The notes beneath the pieces were generated by a model, which saw nothing but the letters and a program-made list of their open reading frames with translations, had not been told where the DNA came from and ran no database searches. This document shows positions 5,110 to 11,702 of a stretch of DNA of 64,000 nt, in pieces. The first letter of the stretch is position 1, and every line of letters begins with the position of its first letter. Source of the DNA: Dechloromonas denitrificans. GTDB taxonomy: Bacteria; Pseudomonadota; Gammaproteobacteria; Burkholderiales; Rhodocyclaceae. The stretch lies in contig NZ_CP075185.1 of NCBI RefSeq assembly GCF_020510685.1, positions 4,047,001 through 4,111,000 on the forward strand. The letters run 5' to 3'. A program made the translations under genes and the position numbers.

Positions 5110-5153
5110 AGCCATTGGGCTACAACAGCGTGCTCGAACGCTTCGGAGGCTCT

Positions 5154-5720
5154 ATGACTTGCCAGCTAGAATGGGTCGGACTATCCATGTGGTGGTGCAA
5201 AATGGACCCAGCAGGCCAAGCCGCTTGGTTTCAGGCAATTGGCGCAATTCTCGCTATAGCCGTCGCAATCTTTGTTCCCTGGCTCCAGCGCCGCGCCGAA
5301 GCACGAGATCGGATGTCCGAACATCGCAGGCGAGTCATGAGTGCTGCCGCGGTGCTCGATATTGAACTCGCGTATGAGTCCGTAATACTGAACTTTGCCC
5401 CTCTTGGTGATGGTGTAGTCGGGCACGAGTTCACGCTTGCACAAGCCGAGCAATTCCTGAAACTTCGACCAGAAGCGCGCTCAGCAATCCATAGCGCCGT
5501 TGAGAATGCCCACTACTTCTCGGACGATTTATGTGAGCAGATCGTTCGGCTAGGCATAGAGGCAGCCGCCTATGATCGAATTATCGAAGATGCGGCCCGT
5601 CGCAAGCCAGCGCGGGACGCGGACGAATTTTTCAGGAGCTGCGCCCCCACGACCGAAATGTTGCAGGATCGAATGGAAGCCGTCCGACATTCGCTCAAGA
5701 GCTATCTTCCGAAAGATTAG
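5154..5720 (+). CDS. Orphan membrane-anchored protein, probable integron cassette ORF
   Basis: Family not recognised. From the ATG at 5154 (GGAGG four bases upstream at 5145-5149) it encodes 188 aa. One membrane helix lies at about residues 20-40 ('AIGAILAIAVAIFVPWL'), followed by 'QRRAEARDR' and a soluble, mostly helical domain. This build (short N-terminus, one helix, helical cytoplasmic tail) is common among hypothetical gene-cassette products. Nineteen bases after the stop comes a 67-bp element with attC architecture, the spacing expected in a cassette. A TTG at 5115 would add 13 residues but lacks a ribosome-binding site. It has no obvious functional link to cbbM/cbbR or the kinase operon on either side, which fits acquisition by transfer. 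Confidence 0.6.
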   Translation: MTCQLEWVGLSMWWCKMDPAGQAAWFQAIGAILAIAVAIFVPWLQRRAEARDRMSEHRRRVMSAAAVLDIELAYESVILNFAPLGDGVVGHEFTLAQAEQFLKLRPEARSAIHSAVENAHYFSDDLCEQIVRLGIEAAAYDRIIEDAARRKPARDADEFFRSCAPTTEMLQDRMEAVRHSLKSYLPKD

Positions 5721-5878: not shown

Positions 5879-6922
5879 TCACGCCTGAACCGGCTGGCTG
5901 ATCGGCAGGCAGATACGAAAGGTCGTGCCCTGGCCGGCGACGCTTGCGACGTGGATGCTGCCGTGGTGTTTCTGGATGATGCCGTAGGACAACGCGAGGC
6001 CCAGGCCCGTCCCCTTGCCGATCGGCTTGGTGGTGAAAAACGGGTCGAAGATTCGGAGCAGATTTTTCTCTTCGATGCCGCCGCCATCGTCGGCGATTTC
6101 GATGCTCACCGTTTCGGCATCGAGTTGCCGGGTGCGTACCGTGATCGTCCCGCGCTTCGTACCGTCCATCGCCTGGGCGGCATTGACCACGAGATTCATG
6201 AAGACCTGGTTGAGCTGCGACGGCAGGCACTCGATGTCCGGAATGTCGCCGTAATCCTTAAGCACATCGGCCTTGTACTTGATCTCGTTGGTCGCGATGT
6301 TGAGCGTCGAGTTCAGCCCGTGGTGAATATTGACCCAGGTGAACACCCCTTTGTCGCTATGGGAAAAGTCCTTCAGGTCATTGACGATTTTCGTGACCCG
6401 GCCGATTCCTTCCCGCGATTCGCCAAGCAGCGCCGGCAATTCCTCCTTGAGATACGGCAGGTCGATCTTTTCGCGCAGGGCCTGCAATTTCTGGCGTTGC
6501 GCCGCCGGCAACTCGGCCTCGCTGGCCTCGTAGCCGGCGAGCAGTTCGAGCAGTTCACCGACGTAAACACCGAGGGTATTGAGATTGGAGTTGATGTAGC
6601 CGACCGGGTTGTTGATTTCGTGGGCCACCCCGGCCGCCAGCTGGCCGACCGACGCCATCTTTTCCGACTGGACCAGCTGGTTCTGCGTATCCTCCAGCCG
6701 ATGCGCCATCGCCGCCTGCGCATCCCGATCCCGGCGCAGGGCATCGTTGCGTTCGTTCAGTTCGCGGGACATCTCGTCGAGCGAATGGGCCAGCAGAGCG
6801 AAATCCGCATCGGCTTTGCCGTAAGCCTGGTCAATCGCCTGAATGAACTCGCTCAGGCCGTCCGGGACGTCATGCAGGCTCCCGAACTGCCGCTTCAACT
6901 GGCGGGCCAGCAAGCGATGCAT
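5879..6922 (-). CDS. Soluble sensor histidine kinase (HisKA-HATPase)
   Basis: A 347-aa kinase without a membrane helix. The N-terminal ~75 residues ('[15 protein letters not shown]' onward) form a helical region, then a coiled coil leads to the H-box '[16 protein letters not shown]', with the phospho-accepting His at about residue 100. The ATP-binding core shows an N-box ('[16 protein letters not shown]'), G1 ('DDGGGI'), F ('FDPFFTTKP') and G2 ('[14 protein letters not shown]'). The frame is open upstream into the preceding gene, so I start at the ATG at 6922, 16 bp after the hemerythrin-kinase stop. It is the third gene of the operon. Its catalytic half closely resembles that of the preceding kinase, suggesting duplication. 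Signal and partner are not visible. Confidence 0.85.
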
Positions 6923-6938
6923 GGCTAGCGCCCCCGTC

Positions 6939-9083
6939 TCATGACCGGCTCGCCGCGTTCGCGTTGGGCACCGTCGGATCTCCGTCCGCGTCATGGCGAA
7001 TGGGCAGCGTGATGCGGAAAGTGCTGCCTTTGCCGACTTCGCTCTCCAGCTCGATGCTGCCATGGTGGTTCCTGATAATGCCGTAGGACAGCGACAACCC
7101 CAGTCCGGTGCCTTTGCCGACCGGTTTGGTCGTAAAGAACGGATCGAAGATCTTTTGCCGGATACTTTCCGGAATACCACTGCCGGTATCGGCAAATTCC
7201 AGCCAGACGCTGTCGCCGCTCACGCCGGTGGTAATCGTGATGCAGCCATGCTCCGGCCCCATGGCATGCGCCGCATTGACCAGCAGGTTGAGAAAGACCT
7301 GGTTGAGCTGGGAAGGCAGGCACTCGACTTCGGGCAGATCGCCGTAATGCTTGACGACATCGGCCTTGTACTTGATTTCGCTGGCCACGATGTTGATCGT
7401 CGAATCGATGCCCTGGTGCAGGTTGACCCGCTGCCAGGACTGGGAACTGTCCACCCGCGAGAAATCCTTCAGATCCTGAACGATTTTCTTGACCCGGGTG
7501 ATCCCTTCCTTCGATTCGTCCATCAGCAGCGGAATGTCCTCTCGCAGGAAATTCAGGTCGATTTCCTGGCGCAGCGCGCCGAGCAAGGCCCCCTGCTCGG
7601 TCGTCCCATCGGGCTCGACGGCCTGGTAGGCCTGGAGAATGCGAAACAGGCTGGCGATATATTTTTCCAGGGCGCCGATGTTGGAATACACGTAGCCGAT
7701 CGGGTTATTGATCTCATGGGCGACACCGGCCGCCAGTTGGCCGATCGAGGCGAGTTTTTCCGACTGGGCCAGTTGCTCCCGGGCAGTCGAAAGCTGCTCG
7801 TTGAGCCGGGTCAGTTCGCTATTGCGCCGCAGCAGTTCGGCCTCCGCTCTTTCCCGCCGGGCATTGTCCTCGGCCAGTTGGCGATTGGCCTCGCGCAACT
7901 CGGCGGTGCGCTGTTCGACCATATGTTCGAGGTGCGCCTGATGGGCACGCAAGGCTTCTTCGGCGCTATGGCGCTCGGTGACATCCTGCAGCGTCTCGAT
8001 GGCCCCGACAATACGGCCGGTGGCATTGCGCAGCGGGGCGGCGGTAAAGAACAACCAGCGGCCGCTTTCCCCGAAATGCGGGAAAAATGCCTCGGCTTCG
8101 AACGCCCCGTCGATCAGCGACGAACGCCGGAATTTGCCCGGGTACAACTGTTCGAACCCACCATCCAGTGCGCCGCTGACAATCAGGTCGGCCATGATCG
8201 GCCGCTCGTTCGGATAGAAGGCCGCCCAGTGCCGGTTGCTGCCCAGCATTTCCGCCGCCGACCGGCCGGTTACCGCGGCACAGGCCTTGTTCCAGTGGGT
8301 TACCTGGTGCTCGGCGTTGATAACCAGGGTCGGCACCGGATCGCCATCGACGATCTGCGTAAGCAATTGCTGCAAGGCCCGCTGCGCGTCGAGTCCGGCC
8401 CGCTTGCGCTCCGACTCGACCAACTGGTGCTGGGTTGCCTCGACGGTCGCCAGCGCCTCCTTGAGTTTGGCCTGTTCAAGCACCAGCTCGCAATTGGCCT
8501 GGGACAACGCCTGCGTCCGCGTCTCGACGCGCTGCTCGAGCTGGCGGTTGAGATCGATCAGCGCCTGATTGCGGCCGGCAATCACCCCATACAGCGAATG
8601 CACCGCGTCGAGCAGGCTGGCCGTGGCCGGATCGGAGACCCGGGCCTGCTCGGTTTCGTAGGCCTGCTGCGGCGACATGCCGCTGCGGATACTCTGGACC
8701 TGGCGGGCCATCGCCTGGTCGGTGCCGAGGATGTGATAGGCCAGCCAGTTGGTCAGAAAACGGAGCAGGAACTCGGTGTCGGCCTGACCGGTATCGACGG
8801 CGCGCATGTTGGAGATCTGCTGCGCGAAATCCTGATGGATGCGTTTGTGCAGCGCGACATGGCGCTCGTCGCAGGCCGATTGGGCCATCAACTCTTCCTC
8901 GTGGGAAAAGTGGGTGACTGCATAGTTCACCAGATAGCCGAATACTCTTTCAACCTCATCCGCCGCGGCTTCCGCCGATTGCAGGCGGCCCACCCAGTTG
9001 ATGATGCGGACCAGCTCCTGATGTTCGGCATCGACAACGGACTCGCCGGTCAGGTAGCGCTCATTCCAGACAAAAGTATCCAT
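6939..9083 (-). CDS. Bacteriohemerythrin-PAS sensor histidine kinase
   Basis: A 714-aa cytoplasmic kinase. Residues 1-130 are a bacteriohemerythrin domain; its di-iron ligands can be placed as H21, H58, E62, H79, H83, H117 and D122, with two residues inserted before H79 relative to typical members. Such domains bind O2 reversibly at a non-heme di-iron site. Coiled coils follow, a PAS domain at about 240-370, another coiled coil, the H-box '[16 protein letters not shown]', and an ATPase domain with '[20 protein letters not shown]'. No membrane helix is seen. A clear ribosome-binding site (GAGGAA) precedes the ATG. It lies 45 bp downstream of the receiver/EAL-like gene and 16 bp before the second kinase. 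An O2, NO or redox signal is inference from the domain. Confidence 0.9.
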
Positions 9084-9128
9084 CGCGTTCCTCAGTGTCT
9101 CAAGCCAGGGCGGGCCGGTGGCTGACCA

Positions 9129-11702
9129 TCAGCCGCCCACCGTGACCGGAAAAATAATCAGCAGACGGCTTTCGGCATGGCGCGGCCCCATCCGTCGATA
9201 CAAGGCGCGCAACGACCCGCTGCCGGCCACCCAATCGACGACATCACCATCGTTCCCCTGCAGCAACCGGAGCAAGGGGGCCGGCAGGCAATCGCTCGCC
9301 GCGCTGCCGAGCAGCGGATTGCCGCCGCCCAGCAGGCGCTCGGCTTCGATATTGGCGAAGACCACCAGATCTTCGTCATCGACCCCGAGCACCGGGAACG
9401 GGATGCACTGCAAAGCCTCCTGCGCGATATCCAGGGTCATTTCATCGCGCTCGATGCGCCGCTCCTTCTCGCCCAGCGTCTGCAGCAGCCGGCCATTGGC
9501 CTCGGCCAGCTGGGTGTTGACCGCCTGCACTTCGCCACTGAGACGGCGGTTTTCATCGGCCATTTCCTTGTGGCGAAAAGCTTCCTCGATGTTGGCGCGG
9601 AGCAGCTCGTCGTCCCAGGGCTTGGTCAGAAACTTATAGATGGCGCCTTCGTTGATCGCGTCGGTGATCGACTGCAGTTCGGTATAGCCGGAGAGCACCA
9701 TCCGCACCGTCTGCGGGTAAAGCGACTTGACGCGGCGCAGGAATTCGACGCCCATCATGCCCGGCATGCGCTGATCCGAGAGGATGATATCGACCTCGTT
9801 CACCGCCAGCAGTTCGAGGCCGGCTTCGCCGCCGGTCGCCGTCAGGATCCGGTAGCCGTTGCGGCGCAGCAGGCGGCGCAACGAAGCGAGGATATTCTCC
9901 TCGTCATCGACGATCAGGATGGTCCGCTCGCGCGGGCTGGGCGCGGCGGGCAGCGCCGGCATCGTGCAACGGTCGGCCAGGATCTTTTCAATGTCGGCGG
10001 CGGGCAGCGGGTGGCTGAAGAAATAGCCCTGGATTTCATCGCAGTGATTGGCGACCAACAGGGCCAGTTGCCCTTCCGTCTCGACGCCCTGGGCGATGAC
10101 CTTGAGCTTGAGATTGTGGGCCATGCCGATCACCGCCCGGGTGATCGAGACGTCGTCGGCTTCGGCCGTGATGTCCTGGATCACCGAGCGGCCCATCTTG
10201 ATGGCATCGAGGGGAAAGCGTTTGAGATACGAAACGCTGGCGTAGCCGGTACCGAAGTTCTCGATGCAAAAGCGCACGCCGAGCCGGCGCAACTCGGTCA
10301 TGATCAACTTGACCCGCTCGACATTGCGCAGCAAGGCGCTTTCCGTCACCTCCAGTTCGAGGCAATCGGCCGGCAGGCCGCTGACGGCCAGCGCTTCGCG
10401 AACGCTGGCGACCAGTTCGCTGCTTTCCAGCTGATACACCGAGAGATTGACGGCGACCGACGGCCGGCCGAAACCGAGATCGTGCCAGTGCTTGAGCTGG
10501 CGACAGGCCTCCCGCAACACCCATTGGCCGACGCCGATGATGAAGCCGTTCTCCTCGAGGGCCGGCACGAAATCGTCCGGCATGACCAGGCCGCGCCCCG
10601 GGTGGCGCCAGCGCAGCAAGGCTTCGAGACCGACGATGTCACCGCTGCTGCAACTGACCTTGGGCTGGTAGAACAATTCGAACTCGTTCCCGGCCAGCGC
10701 CTGGTGCAGGTCGCTATCGAAGCTGAGGCGGGCCAGCGCCCCCTCGTTCATGCTGGCCGTGTAGTAGCGGAAGGTGTTGCATCCGGCGTCGCGCGCCCGG
10801 CGCATCGCCGTATCGGCGAAACCGAGCAGCGTTTCAACGTCGTCGGAATCGCCGGGCGCCAGCGCGATGCCGATGCTGGCGCTGACGAAAACCTTCTGTC
10901 CGTTGATCTCGAAGGGTTGTTCGAGCAAGGCCATCAGCTTGCGGGCAACCACCCCGGCATCGCTGCCCAGACCAACTTCCGCGACCATCACGGCGAATTT
11001 CTGCTGATCGAGGCGGCCCAGCGTATCGCTGTGCCGCAGGCCGTCGGCGATACGCCGGCTGACCCCCTGGAGCAGCAGCTCGCCGGCCGCCCGGCCGAGG
11101 GAATCGCTGATCACCTTGAAACGATCGACATCGATGCACAGCACCGCGACACTCTTGCGCAGGCGCTGGGCCTGGGCCAGCCCGTTGCCCAGGCGGTCGA
11201 GAAACAGCAGGCGATTCGGCAAGCCGGTCAGGGCGTCGAAATGCGCCACGTCGAACAGTTTCTGCTCGGCGAGCACCTCGTGGGTAATATCCGCGAGCAT
11301 CGCCAGCGCCCCCCGTTCGCCGGCCACGGCCAAGGCGGCGAAATGGGCGCGAAACCAGCGCCGGCCATCCGGCGAATCGCTGGGATAGGCAAAGCTGCCG
11401 CCCTCCCGGCTGCCGGCAAGAATTTCCCGCAGATAGAGCGCCGCCTCGCCGGCCGGCATGCCCTCGCAGAGGGCCAGGTAATCGCTCCCCAGCACACTGC
11501 CGGCCGGGATCAGGCAATTGCCGCTGGCCGAAGCCGCCCAGCGCTGGTTGACGGCGACGATGCGACCGCCGCCATCGATATGCGCGACGCTGGCCGGAAT
11601 GGCATCGAGCAGCGCCTGTTCAATGGCCGAATCGGCGTAGCCTGGCGAATCTCCCGAAGGATGCGGAGCGGCAGCGGAGTCGACCAACTTGTCAGGGACC
11701 AT
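9129..11702 (-). CDS. PAS / degenerate GGDEF / degenerate EAL / receiver / PAS-like protein
   Basis: An 857-aa multidomain signalling protein. Rough order: PAS (25-130), GGDEF (150-320), EAL (330-575), receiver (590-705), coiled coil, PAS-like end. The cyclase site reads 'RLDQQKF' where GGDEF is expected, so it should not make c-di-GMP, but an RxxD I-site (RHSD) is kept. EAL keeps 'EALLRW', but the metal-binding 'DDFGTG' is 'ENFGTG', 'KIDRS' is 'KMGRS' and 'AEGVE' is 'AQGVE', so phosphodiesterase activity is unlikely. The receiver has its Asp in 'IILSDQRMPGMMG' and an RpfG-like 'KPWDDELL'. It is first of three genes with two kinases behind it; a good ribosome-binding site (AAGGAGA) marks the start. 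I infer a phosphorylatable c-di-GMP receptor. Confidence 0.88.
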   Translation of the reverse strand: MVPDKLVDSAAAPHPSGDSPGYADSAIEQALLDAIPASVAHIDGGGRIVAVNQRWAASASGNCLIPAGSVLGSDYLALCEGMPAGEAALYLREILAGSREGGSFAYPSDSPDGRRWFRAHFAALAVAGERGALAMLADITHEVLAEQKLFDVAHFDALTGLPNRLLFLDRLGNGLAQAQRLRKSVAVLCIDVDRFKVISDSLGRAAGELLLQGVSRRIADGLRHSDTLGRLDQQKFAVMVAEVGLGSDAGVVARKLMALLEQPFEINGQKVFVSASIGIALAPGDSDDVETLLGFADTAMRRARDAGCNTFRYYTASMNEGALARLSFDSDLHQALAGNEFELFYQPKVSCSSGDIVGLEALLRWRHPGRGLVMPDDFVPALEENGFIIGVGQWVLREACRQLKHWHDLGFGRPSVAVNLSVYQLESSELVASVREALAVSGLPADCLELEVTESALLRNVERVKLIMTELRRLGVRFCIENFGTGYASVSYLKRFPLDAIKMGRSVIQDITAEADDVSITRAVIGMAHNLKLKVIAQGVETEGQLALLVANHCDEIQGYFFSHPLPAADIEKILADRCTMPALPAAPSPRERTILIVDDEENILASLRRLLRRNGYRILTATGGEAGLELLAVNEVDIILSDQRMPGMMGVEFLRRVKSLYPQTVRMVLSGYTELQSITDAINEGAIYKFLTKPWDDELLRANIEEAFRHKEMADENRRLSGEVQAVNTQLAEANGRLLQTLGEKERRIERDEMTLDIAQEALQCIPFPVLGVDDEDLVVFANIEAERLLGGGNPLLGSAASDCLPAPLLRLLQGNDGDVVDWVAGSGSLRALYRRMGPRHAESRLLIIFPVTVGG

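Follow-up and report, generated by a model that had tools for sequence, protein, structure and literature searches.

A hemerythrin histidine kinase and a predicted GGDEF-EAL pseudoenzyme receiver in an apparently reduced operon of Dechloromonas denitrificans

Background

To what does a hemerythrin histidine kinase signal when the only receiver encoded beside it belongs to a cyclic di-GMP (c-di-GMP) type protein whose active sites have been lost? The question is raised by three genes at positions 5,879 to 11,702 of a 64,000-nucleotide stretch of Dechloromonas denitrificans DNA (contig NZ_CP075185.1, positions 4,047,001 to 4,111,000; hereafter the window), which lies at 4.05-4.11 Mb in a single-contig genome of 4.62 Mb. 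An earlier note had proposed them as a candidate new and self-contained sensory phosphorelay, formed by three same-strand genes with gaps of 45 and 16 bp, in which a hemerythrin histidine kinase (HrHK) and a second histidine kinase (HK2) act with a dead GGDEF-EAL receiver protein (GER). The gene arrangement holds exactly (45 bp between GER and HrHK, 16 bp between HrHK and HK2), as does the presence beside HrHK of a protein in which both active sites are destroyed and the receiver is intact. Our analyses suggest, at what we judge to be about an even chance, redox-gated phosphorylation of a receiver whose output would no longer be enzymatic, within a reduced form of a Rhodocyclales kinase/receiver/c-di-GMP operon. 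The features concerned are:

9129-11702, minus strand: GER, 857 amino acids, with PAS, degenerate GGDEF, degenerate EAL and receiver (REC) domains and a C-terminal region (Pfam and motif comparison)
9588..9920, minus strand: receiver domain of GER, residues 595-705, with D599/D600, D643, S671 and K694 intact (Pfam and residue check)
6939-9083, minus strand: HrHK, 714 amino acids, with a hemerythrin domain (about residues 1-130), a long helix, a PAS domain (about residues 250-367), another long helix and a DHp/HATPase kinase
8694..9083, minus strand: hemerythrin domain of HrHK, with H21, H58, E62, H79, H83, H117 and D122 (Pfam, alignment and AlphaFold2 model)
5879-6922, minus strand: HK2, a histidine kinase of 347 amino acids with HisKA and HATPase_c (Pfam), an ATG start at 6922 and H101

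Pfam recognised PAS, GGDEF, EAL and Response_reg in GER, and Hemerythrin, PAS and HATPase_c in HrHK; the receiver of GER is, as had been proposed, the only one in the three genes. A longer open reading frame for HK2, starting from a TTG at 7195, was taken as spurious, since it overlaps HrHK and full-length homologues, which are present in three other loci (L033, L035 and L087), start at the ATG at 6922. Because the reading frames are uninterrupted and full-length homologues exist, the three genes amount to more than a chance observation.

Results

Loss of the active sites and conservation of the receiver in GER

The alignment of GER to MorA and other solved GGDEF-EAL structures placed D232-Q233-Q234-K235-F236 at the GGDEF signature, a sequence that departs from GG(D/E)EF. 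In the EAL domain, the positions equivalent to RocR D295, D296 and E352 are occupied by E481, N482 and Q538, and the full set of metal ligands of an EAL phosphodiesterase (equivalents of RocR E175, N233, E265, D295, D296 and E352; residue roles as given in passages of PMC7911125) is not present. According to the portion of PMC12943098 that deals with TBD1265, replacement by alanine of the first glutamate of the ExxE motif, the equivalent of Q538, abolished activity. The receiver, on the other hand, carries the acidic pair D599/D600, the phospho-acceptor aspartate D643, S671 and K694. These residues were present in all 20 GER and GER_B sequences compared (two of them partial), and the receiver motifs were intact in all 19 loci, the window included, of a second set that overlaps the first by four. 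The NosR-family response regulator model of NCBIfam matches residues 595-764 of GER at 203 bits, below its cut-off of 400 bits. GER also retains R223xxD226, an RxxD motif being the usual inhibitory site, and the EAL residues Q346, E360, R364, N419, E451, K502 and Q558, which would be permissive only for the binding of c-di-GMP.

The same dead EAL state was found in P0002 (97% identical to GER), P0003 (80%) and P0020 (81%; GGDEF region missing) among the 39 homologues, out of 120 listed, whose motifs were compared. It is not common to the whole family, a possibility ruled out because most of the full-length GERs compared keep an intact EAL: this is the case for all five full-length orthologues of the genus that belong to the type A operon described below, and for 12 GER_B relatives from the sister operon (also described below). 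P0017 is a separate homologue with differently decayed active sites and an intact receiver.

Within the 19 loci of the second set, the EAL domain is intact in seven (L087, L114, L115, L124 and L129 among them), partly changed in L035, absent in the Thauera locus L120, and devoid of its motifs in nine. These nine (L123, L127, L128, L131-L135 and L137; eight from Zoogloea and L127 from a proteobacterium) have no GGDEF domain and an intact receiver. They rule out that inactivity is confined to the clade of the window, and their motifs indicate that they are a second pseudoenzyme lineage, mostly of Zoogloea. Only REC and the C-terminal region remain of GER in G044 (L061) and Thauera (L120). Catalysis is, as judged from these motifs, a function lost several times while the receiver stayed, and repeated catalytic loss with a constant receiver favours a non-enzymatic output of GER.

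An apparently reduced form of a larger operon, with linkage of GER to HrHK

Translated searches identified in relatives a larger operon, here called type A, with the order GER - HDOD - HrHK (sensor kinase) - REC-HD-GYP - REC - HK2, members of which are missing in places. The window retains GER, the kinase and HK2 in this order, without HDOD, REC-HD-GYP and REC; no close HDOD was found elsewhere in its genome either, the best match being 36% identical. The nearest arrangement is that of G047 (GER, HDOD, HrHK and HK2). Conservation of the exact three-gene operon was rejected, that shape being seen only in the window, and in place of a new system the comparison of gene orders indicates that the locus is a trimmed version of a larger operon of Rhodocyclales.

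Linkage is conserved between GER and HrHK. The HrHK loci compared were chosen for a match extending from residue 5 or before to residue 640 or beyond, and were brought from 79 to 46 by removing loci identical over the first 300 residues; the tree of HrHK was interpreted without support values. In the HrHK clade of the window, 11 of the 16 loci have GER or its receiver half upstream of HrHK, ten of them with the larger GER and L061 with REC and the C-terminal region only. HDOD stands between the two genes in nine of the ten loci with the larger GER, the window being the exception, and HK2 comes after HrHK in four of the 11. The distances of GER and HrHK are correlated over ten loci (r 0.81; reached in 0 of 5000 permutations), a pattern that shared vertical descent alone could produce.

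The input of this module differs among genera. The match of the equivalent kinase to HrHK begins only at about residue 187-240 in Zoogloea, Thauera, Azospira and Oryzomicrobium, and the six such kinases scanned with Pfam have one or two N-terminal PAS domains in the place of hemerythrin, which implies that the input has been swapped between lineages. The same operon order with PAS instead of hemerythrin was observed in L120, L123, L124, L128, L129 and L132, from Thauera, Zoogloea, Azospira and Oryzomicrobium.

In L061 to L064, the hemerythrin kinase stands alone (in L061 with the REC protein) beside an opposite-strand NifB-like gene (Radical SAM and Nitro_FeMo-Co domains), and no such gene was shown beside HrHK in L065. 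The NifB-adjoining kinases fit a role in oxygen (O2) sensing in nitrogen-fixing cells.

Paralogous kinases, further receivers and a sister operon

The data do not support a self-contained circuit. The loci of relatives carry two more receivers (three in L087), some hemerythrin kinases have no adjoining receiver, and further members of both subfamilies are encoded in the window genome. The kinase core of HrHK has seven paralogues there at 55-62% identity, six besides HK2, and the receiver of GER has five close relatives at 39-66%, namely the GER_B receiver, REC-HD-GYP, the ATPase receiver, a stand-alone REC and an NtrC-type activator; we set this cut between the fifth (39%, E 5e-21) and the next (34%, E 6e-17). 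Nor is phosphorelay the right word, since Pfam found no Hpt domain or receiver on either kinase, and no hybrid intermediate was found in the three proteins.

The tree holds 30 further loci. Their HrHK is about 50-57% identical to that of the window and follows, where the contig reaches, GER_B, a PAS/GAF kinase, REC-HD-GYP and REC. A receiver-bearing T2SSE ATPase is present in 19 of these sister loci, 17 of which also have a GTPase and another kinase, the remaining two lying on contigs that end before these genes; one further sister locus has the GTPase and the kinase without the ATPase. The best solved relative of the GTPase is MglA (E 3.5e-42) and that of the ATPase is PilB (E 1e-125). Type A and sister operon are joined in one run in L087. 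The window genome has its own copy of the GTPase/ATPase operon at 2.54 Mb (G000:C1:2543516-2549434, L067), with no hemerythrin kinase at its end.

It is possible, although we give it appreciably less than an even chance, that HrHK and HK2 work chiefly in trans, on the subfamily's other receivers, such as those of the 2.54 Mb operon (the GER_B receiver, REC-HD-GYP, the REC-PilB-like ATPase and REC) or the NtrC-type regulator, GER being one of several targets or a phosphate sink. The numbers of paralogous kinases and receivers speak for such a branched network, as do the hemerythrin kinases without an adjoining receiver and those that follow sister-operon components in 30 loci, 19 of them with the ATPase, together with the window genome's own sister operon, which lacks one. 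The interface stretch HEINNPxGxVxSN of HrHK also recurs with small changes in the nine kinases of the genome that were aligned, all of which share HE-x-NNP-x-G-x-x-x-SN. Against it stand the linkage to GER retained in 11 of 16 loci and the kinase helix. Specificity is carried by helix positions H+7, H+11 and H+12; position H+10 differs fully between the clades: the GER-linked clade has Y, H or F there and the other clade always has N, a split that hints at some insulation. The local receiver of GER is the first candidate target, not the sole one.

The operon of the type seen in L067, L037, L038, L069 and L087 combines an MglA-like GTPase, a REC-PilB-like ATPase, kinases, REC-HD-GYP, REC and often a hemerythrin kinase, a gene content suggestive of O2-linked control over type IV pili or over cell polarity. 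The MshEN consensus pattern was not found in the two copies of the ATPase checked, although the G034 copy is matched by the MshEN model of Pfam. In genomes that also carry an HrHK of the window type, a PilB-type operon ends in a further hemerythrin kinase, which is more divergent (about 40% identity over the hemerythrin part; L069:13670-15142 and L072:12553-13980).

Apparent maintenance of the degenerate GGDEF-EAL half

That GER is simply decaying, in an operon which has lost HDOD, REC-HD-GYP and REC and with the GGDEF-EAL half on its way out, appears quite unlikely. Such decay would agree with the absence from the window of three partner genes of fuller type A loci, with the lack of GGDEF or of both catalytic halves in G053, G044, Thauera and Zoogloea (the EAL motifs being unrecognisable in Zoogloea), and with the independent motif decay in P0017. 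Expected identities were predicted from receiver divergence by a fit over 18 of the 39 homologues, all orthologues whose EAL is intact. This control set, which left out the window clade, the degenerate P0017, P0018 and P0025 to P0040, was picked for an intact EAL, and at least P0004 has an altered GGDEF. Set against the fit, the EAL domain of the window is slightly too divergent from three homologues, falling 7 and 4 points below for P0004 and P0008 (standard deviation 5.9) and reaching 79% for P0020, where a hand calculation from the fit gives about 84.

The comparison of the window with P0003 goes the other way: the EAL domains are 86% identical against 84% expected, and the GGDEF domains 81% against 69% expected from receiver divergence, so that neither domain has diverged beyond the receiver-based prediction. 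Furthermore, the dead state is shared over about 20% protein divergence with the reading frames still open. GER is apparently a pseudoenzyme kept under constraint, a reading drawn from a small number of protein sequences.

The hemerythrin kinase and HK2

All seven di-iron ligands (five His, one Glu and one Asp) were placed in HrHK, as had been claimed, and alignment confirmed them without exception in 19 of 19 proteins and in 46 of 46 deduplicated loci. Of 120 listed database proteins, 119 keep them too, and the remaining one, P0179, has no N-terminal part. The domain exceeds the cut-offs of PF01814 (56.8 against 25.3 bits) and TIGR02481 (94.8 against 51.75), and its residues 6-124 match DcrH-Hr (2avk) by sequence. 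The AlphaFold2 model of HrHK (mean predicted local distance difference test score, pLDDT, 76.6; predicted template modelling score, pTM, 0.33) is reliable within domains and not for their relative positions. It predicts four helices in the hemerythrin part, at 15-36, 41-69, 73-95 and 101-133, with block pLDDT values of 67-91 for residues 11-130. After these come a helix some 90 residues long, a PAS-like fold, another long helix and the kinase core. The kinase residues H456, N599, N603, D632, G636, G660 and G662 are likewise invariant in all 46 loci. A function of the domain in iron or O2 storage, detoxification or nitric oxide (NO) sensing, instead of O2 or redox sensing, is very improbable: hemerythrins have several roles and the ligand set would not separate O2 from NO or redox, yet here the domain is fused to a complete kinase with its ligands invariant, PAS sensors replace it in the equivalent gene of relatives, and a NifB-like gene adjoins it in four loci.

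HK2 scores 29.7 bits for HisKA, above the cut-off of 26.9, and carries H101 and an N-box beginning at 238; Pfam recognises no sensor domain in it.

Searches retained 75 distinct loci from 268 matching stretches. Of the 60 genomes of the genus that were searched, at least 37 carry HrHK, in one piece in 31, in two matching pieces in five and cut short in one; a stop falls within the matched stretch in two of the 31 (G018 and G048). A relative of the whole of HrHK also occurs in a Candidatus Accumulibacter genome (L115). Among the matches listed for the order's other families (40 genomes), none reached the hemerythrin region. The next-best relatives of the hemerythrin part are L139-L154, and both of those scanned with Pfam (L143 and L153) are hemerythrin-GGDEF proteins, which suggests that Bhr-DGC and hemerythrin kinases may have exchanged domains.

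Surroundings of the operon

The promoter and terminator scan of the window gave two promoter-like matches against 1.3 expected, one of them directly upstream of GER (11745-11718), and two terminator-like matches against 5.3 expected. FNR-like sites with two mismatches numbered 22 over the whole window against 11.7 expected, none of them upstream of GER. An open reading frame of 201 amino acids (5115-5720, plus strand) adjoins the 3' end of the operon; it has no match in Pfam or NCBIfam and was not picked by the codon-usage gene caller.

Discussion

Proposed circuit

In the circuit that we propose, the di-iron hemerythrin domain of HrHK would read O2 or the redox state, and the signal would pass through the long helix and the PAS domain, shifting the balance between kinase and phosphatase activities. 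HK2 would add a second input, and the shared target of both kinases at the locus would be the receiver of GER. Since GER is predicted to be unable to make or break c-di-GMP, phosphorylation would switch a folded GGDEF-EAL pseudoenzyme, acting by binding a partner protein or c-di-GMP. Both kinases probably also address receivers of the same subfamily encoded elsewhere in the genome.

Several observations, besides the EAL identities that fall below the fit, weigh against this circuit. In five of the 16 clade loci no GER adjoins HrHK, three of them on contigs with just 1.4-2.3 kb upstream, and HrHK may serve other receivers, given that its interface stretch is common to paralogous kinases. The hemerythrin domain falls slightly short of NF033749, a narrower bacteriohemerythrin model (81.2 against 84 bits), the HisKA score of HrHK (19.8 bits) lies below the cut-off that HK2 exceeds, and no hemerythrin chain was found among the 50 listed fold matches of the whole HrHK model, which are PAS-kinase, kinase or phytochrome chains, mostly with a high root mean square deviation. 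The scan of the window found no FNR-type site between GER and the divergent gene. Finally, the GER proteins of Zoogloea have lost the EAL contact residues too, so that the family as a whole cannot share c-di-GMP binding as its output; as a consequence of this result of the 19-locus check, output through a partner protein gained over output through c-di-GMP. The c-di-GMP step is the weakest part of the proposed circuit.

As a more tentative extension, which we hold to be rather unlikely as a whole, the hemerythrin kinase would be the O2 or redox input of a modular controller of surface behaviour in Rhodocyclales, with an MglA-like GTPase and a receiver-bearing PilB-like pilus motor encoded in its sister operon. 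In this controller a c-di-GMP enzyme would repeatedly have been turned into a non-enzymatic receptor switched by phosphorylation (in the clade of the window by point changes, with the fold kept), and the kinase would signal both to this receptor and, in trans, to the pilus-motor operon elsewhere in the chromosome.

The value of these loci lies in what they make accessible. A family of hemerythrin kinases with invariant ligands and recurring genetic partners renders those partners and outputs directly testable. The dead GER, set beside sister-species orthologues whose EAL is intact and the separate loss in Zoogloea, constitutes a natural experiment in the passage from c-di-GMP enzyme to receiver. 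The presence of an MglA-like GTPase and a REC-PilB-like ATPase in the linked operon, in turn, suggests that these bacteria may connect type IV pili to O2 sensing and c-di-GMP.

Comparison with known systems

LapD and FimX are degenerate GGDEF-EAL receptors, and GER resembles them in having a GGDEF-EAL pair with both active sites lost. It differs in its C-terminal receiver, and the LapD model matches it far below the cut-off (112 against 1020 bits). The response regulators of Desulfovibrio vulgaris with c-di-GMP outputs, as presented in sections of PMC4114195, have receivers on GGDEF, EAL and HD-GYP proteins, as here; six of those eight were active in vitro, whereas GER is predicted to be dead and lies beside a hemerythrin kinase.

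Hemerythrin kinases are already known as sequences and have been proposed as sensors. Four hemerythrin-kinase chimeras were counted in 2008, according to a passage of PMC2556348. The portions of a 2022 review of hemerythrin sensors available to us (PMC9388753) cover a chemoreceptor, a diguanylate cyclase, an HD-GYP phosphodiesterase and P-type ATPases, and no characterised histidine kinase. Such chimeras and Bhr-66 of Methylomonas join hemerythrin to kinase or PAS modules, as HrHK does; unlike the window, they have no link to a GGDEF-EAL-REC pseudoenzyme in the excerpts describing them. Among the openly licensed papers that the searches listed, we recognised no description of either operon type, of the sensor swap or of the dead GER. 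Bhr-DGC of Vibrio cholerae and Bhr-HD-GYP of Ferrovum, as described in parts of PMC9388753 and PMC8846402, share with HrHK an N-terminal hemerythrin domain tied to c-di-GMP signalling; in those proteins hemerythrin is fused to the enzyme itself, whereas in the locus studied here a histidine kinase carries it, and the c-di-GMP component is a separate protein, predicted to be inactive.

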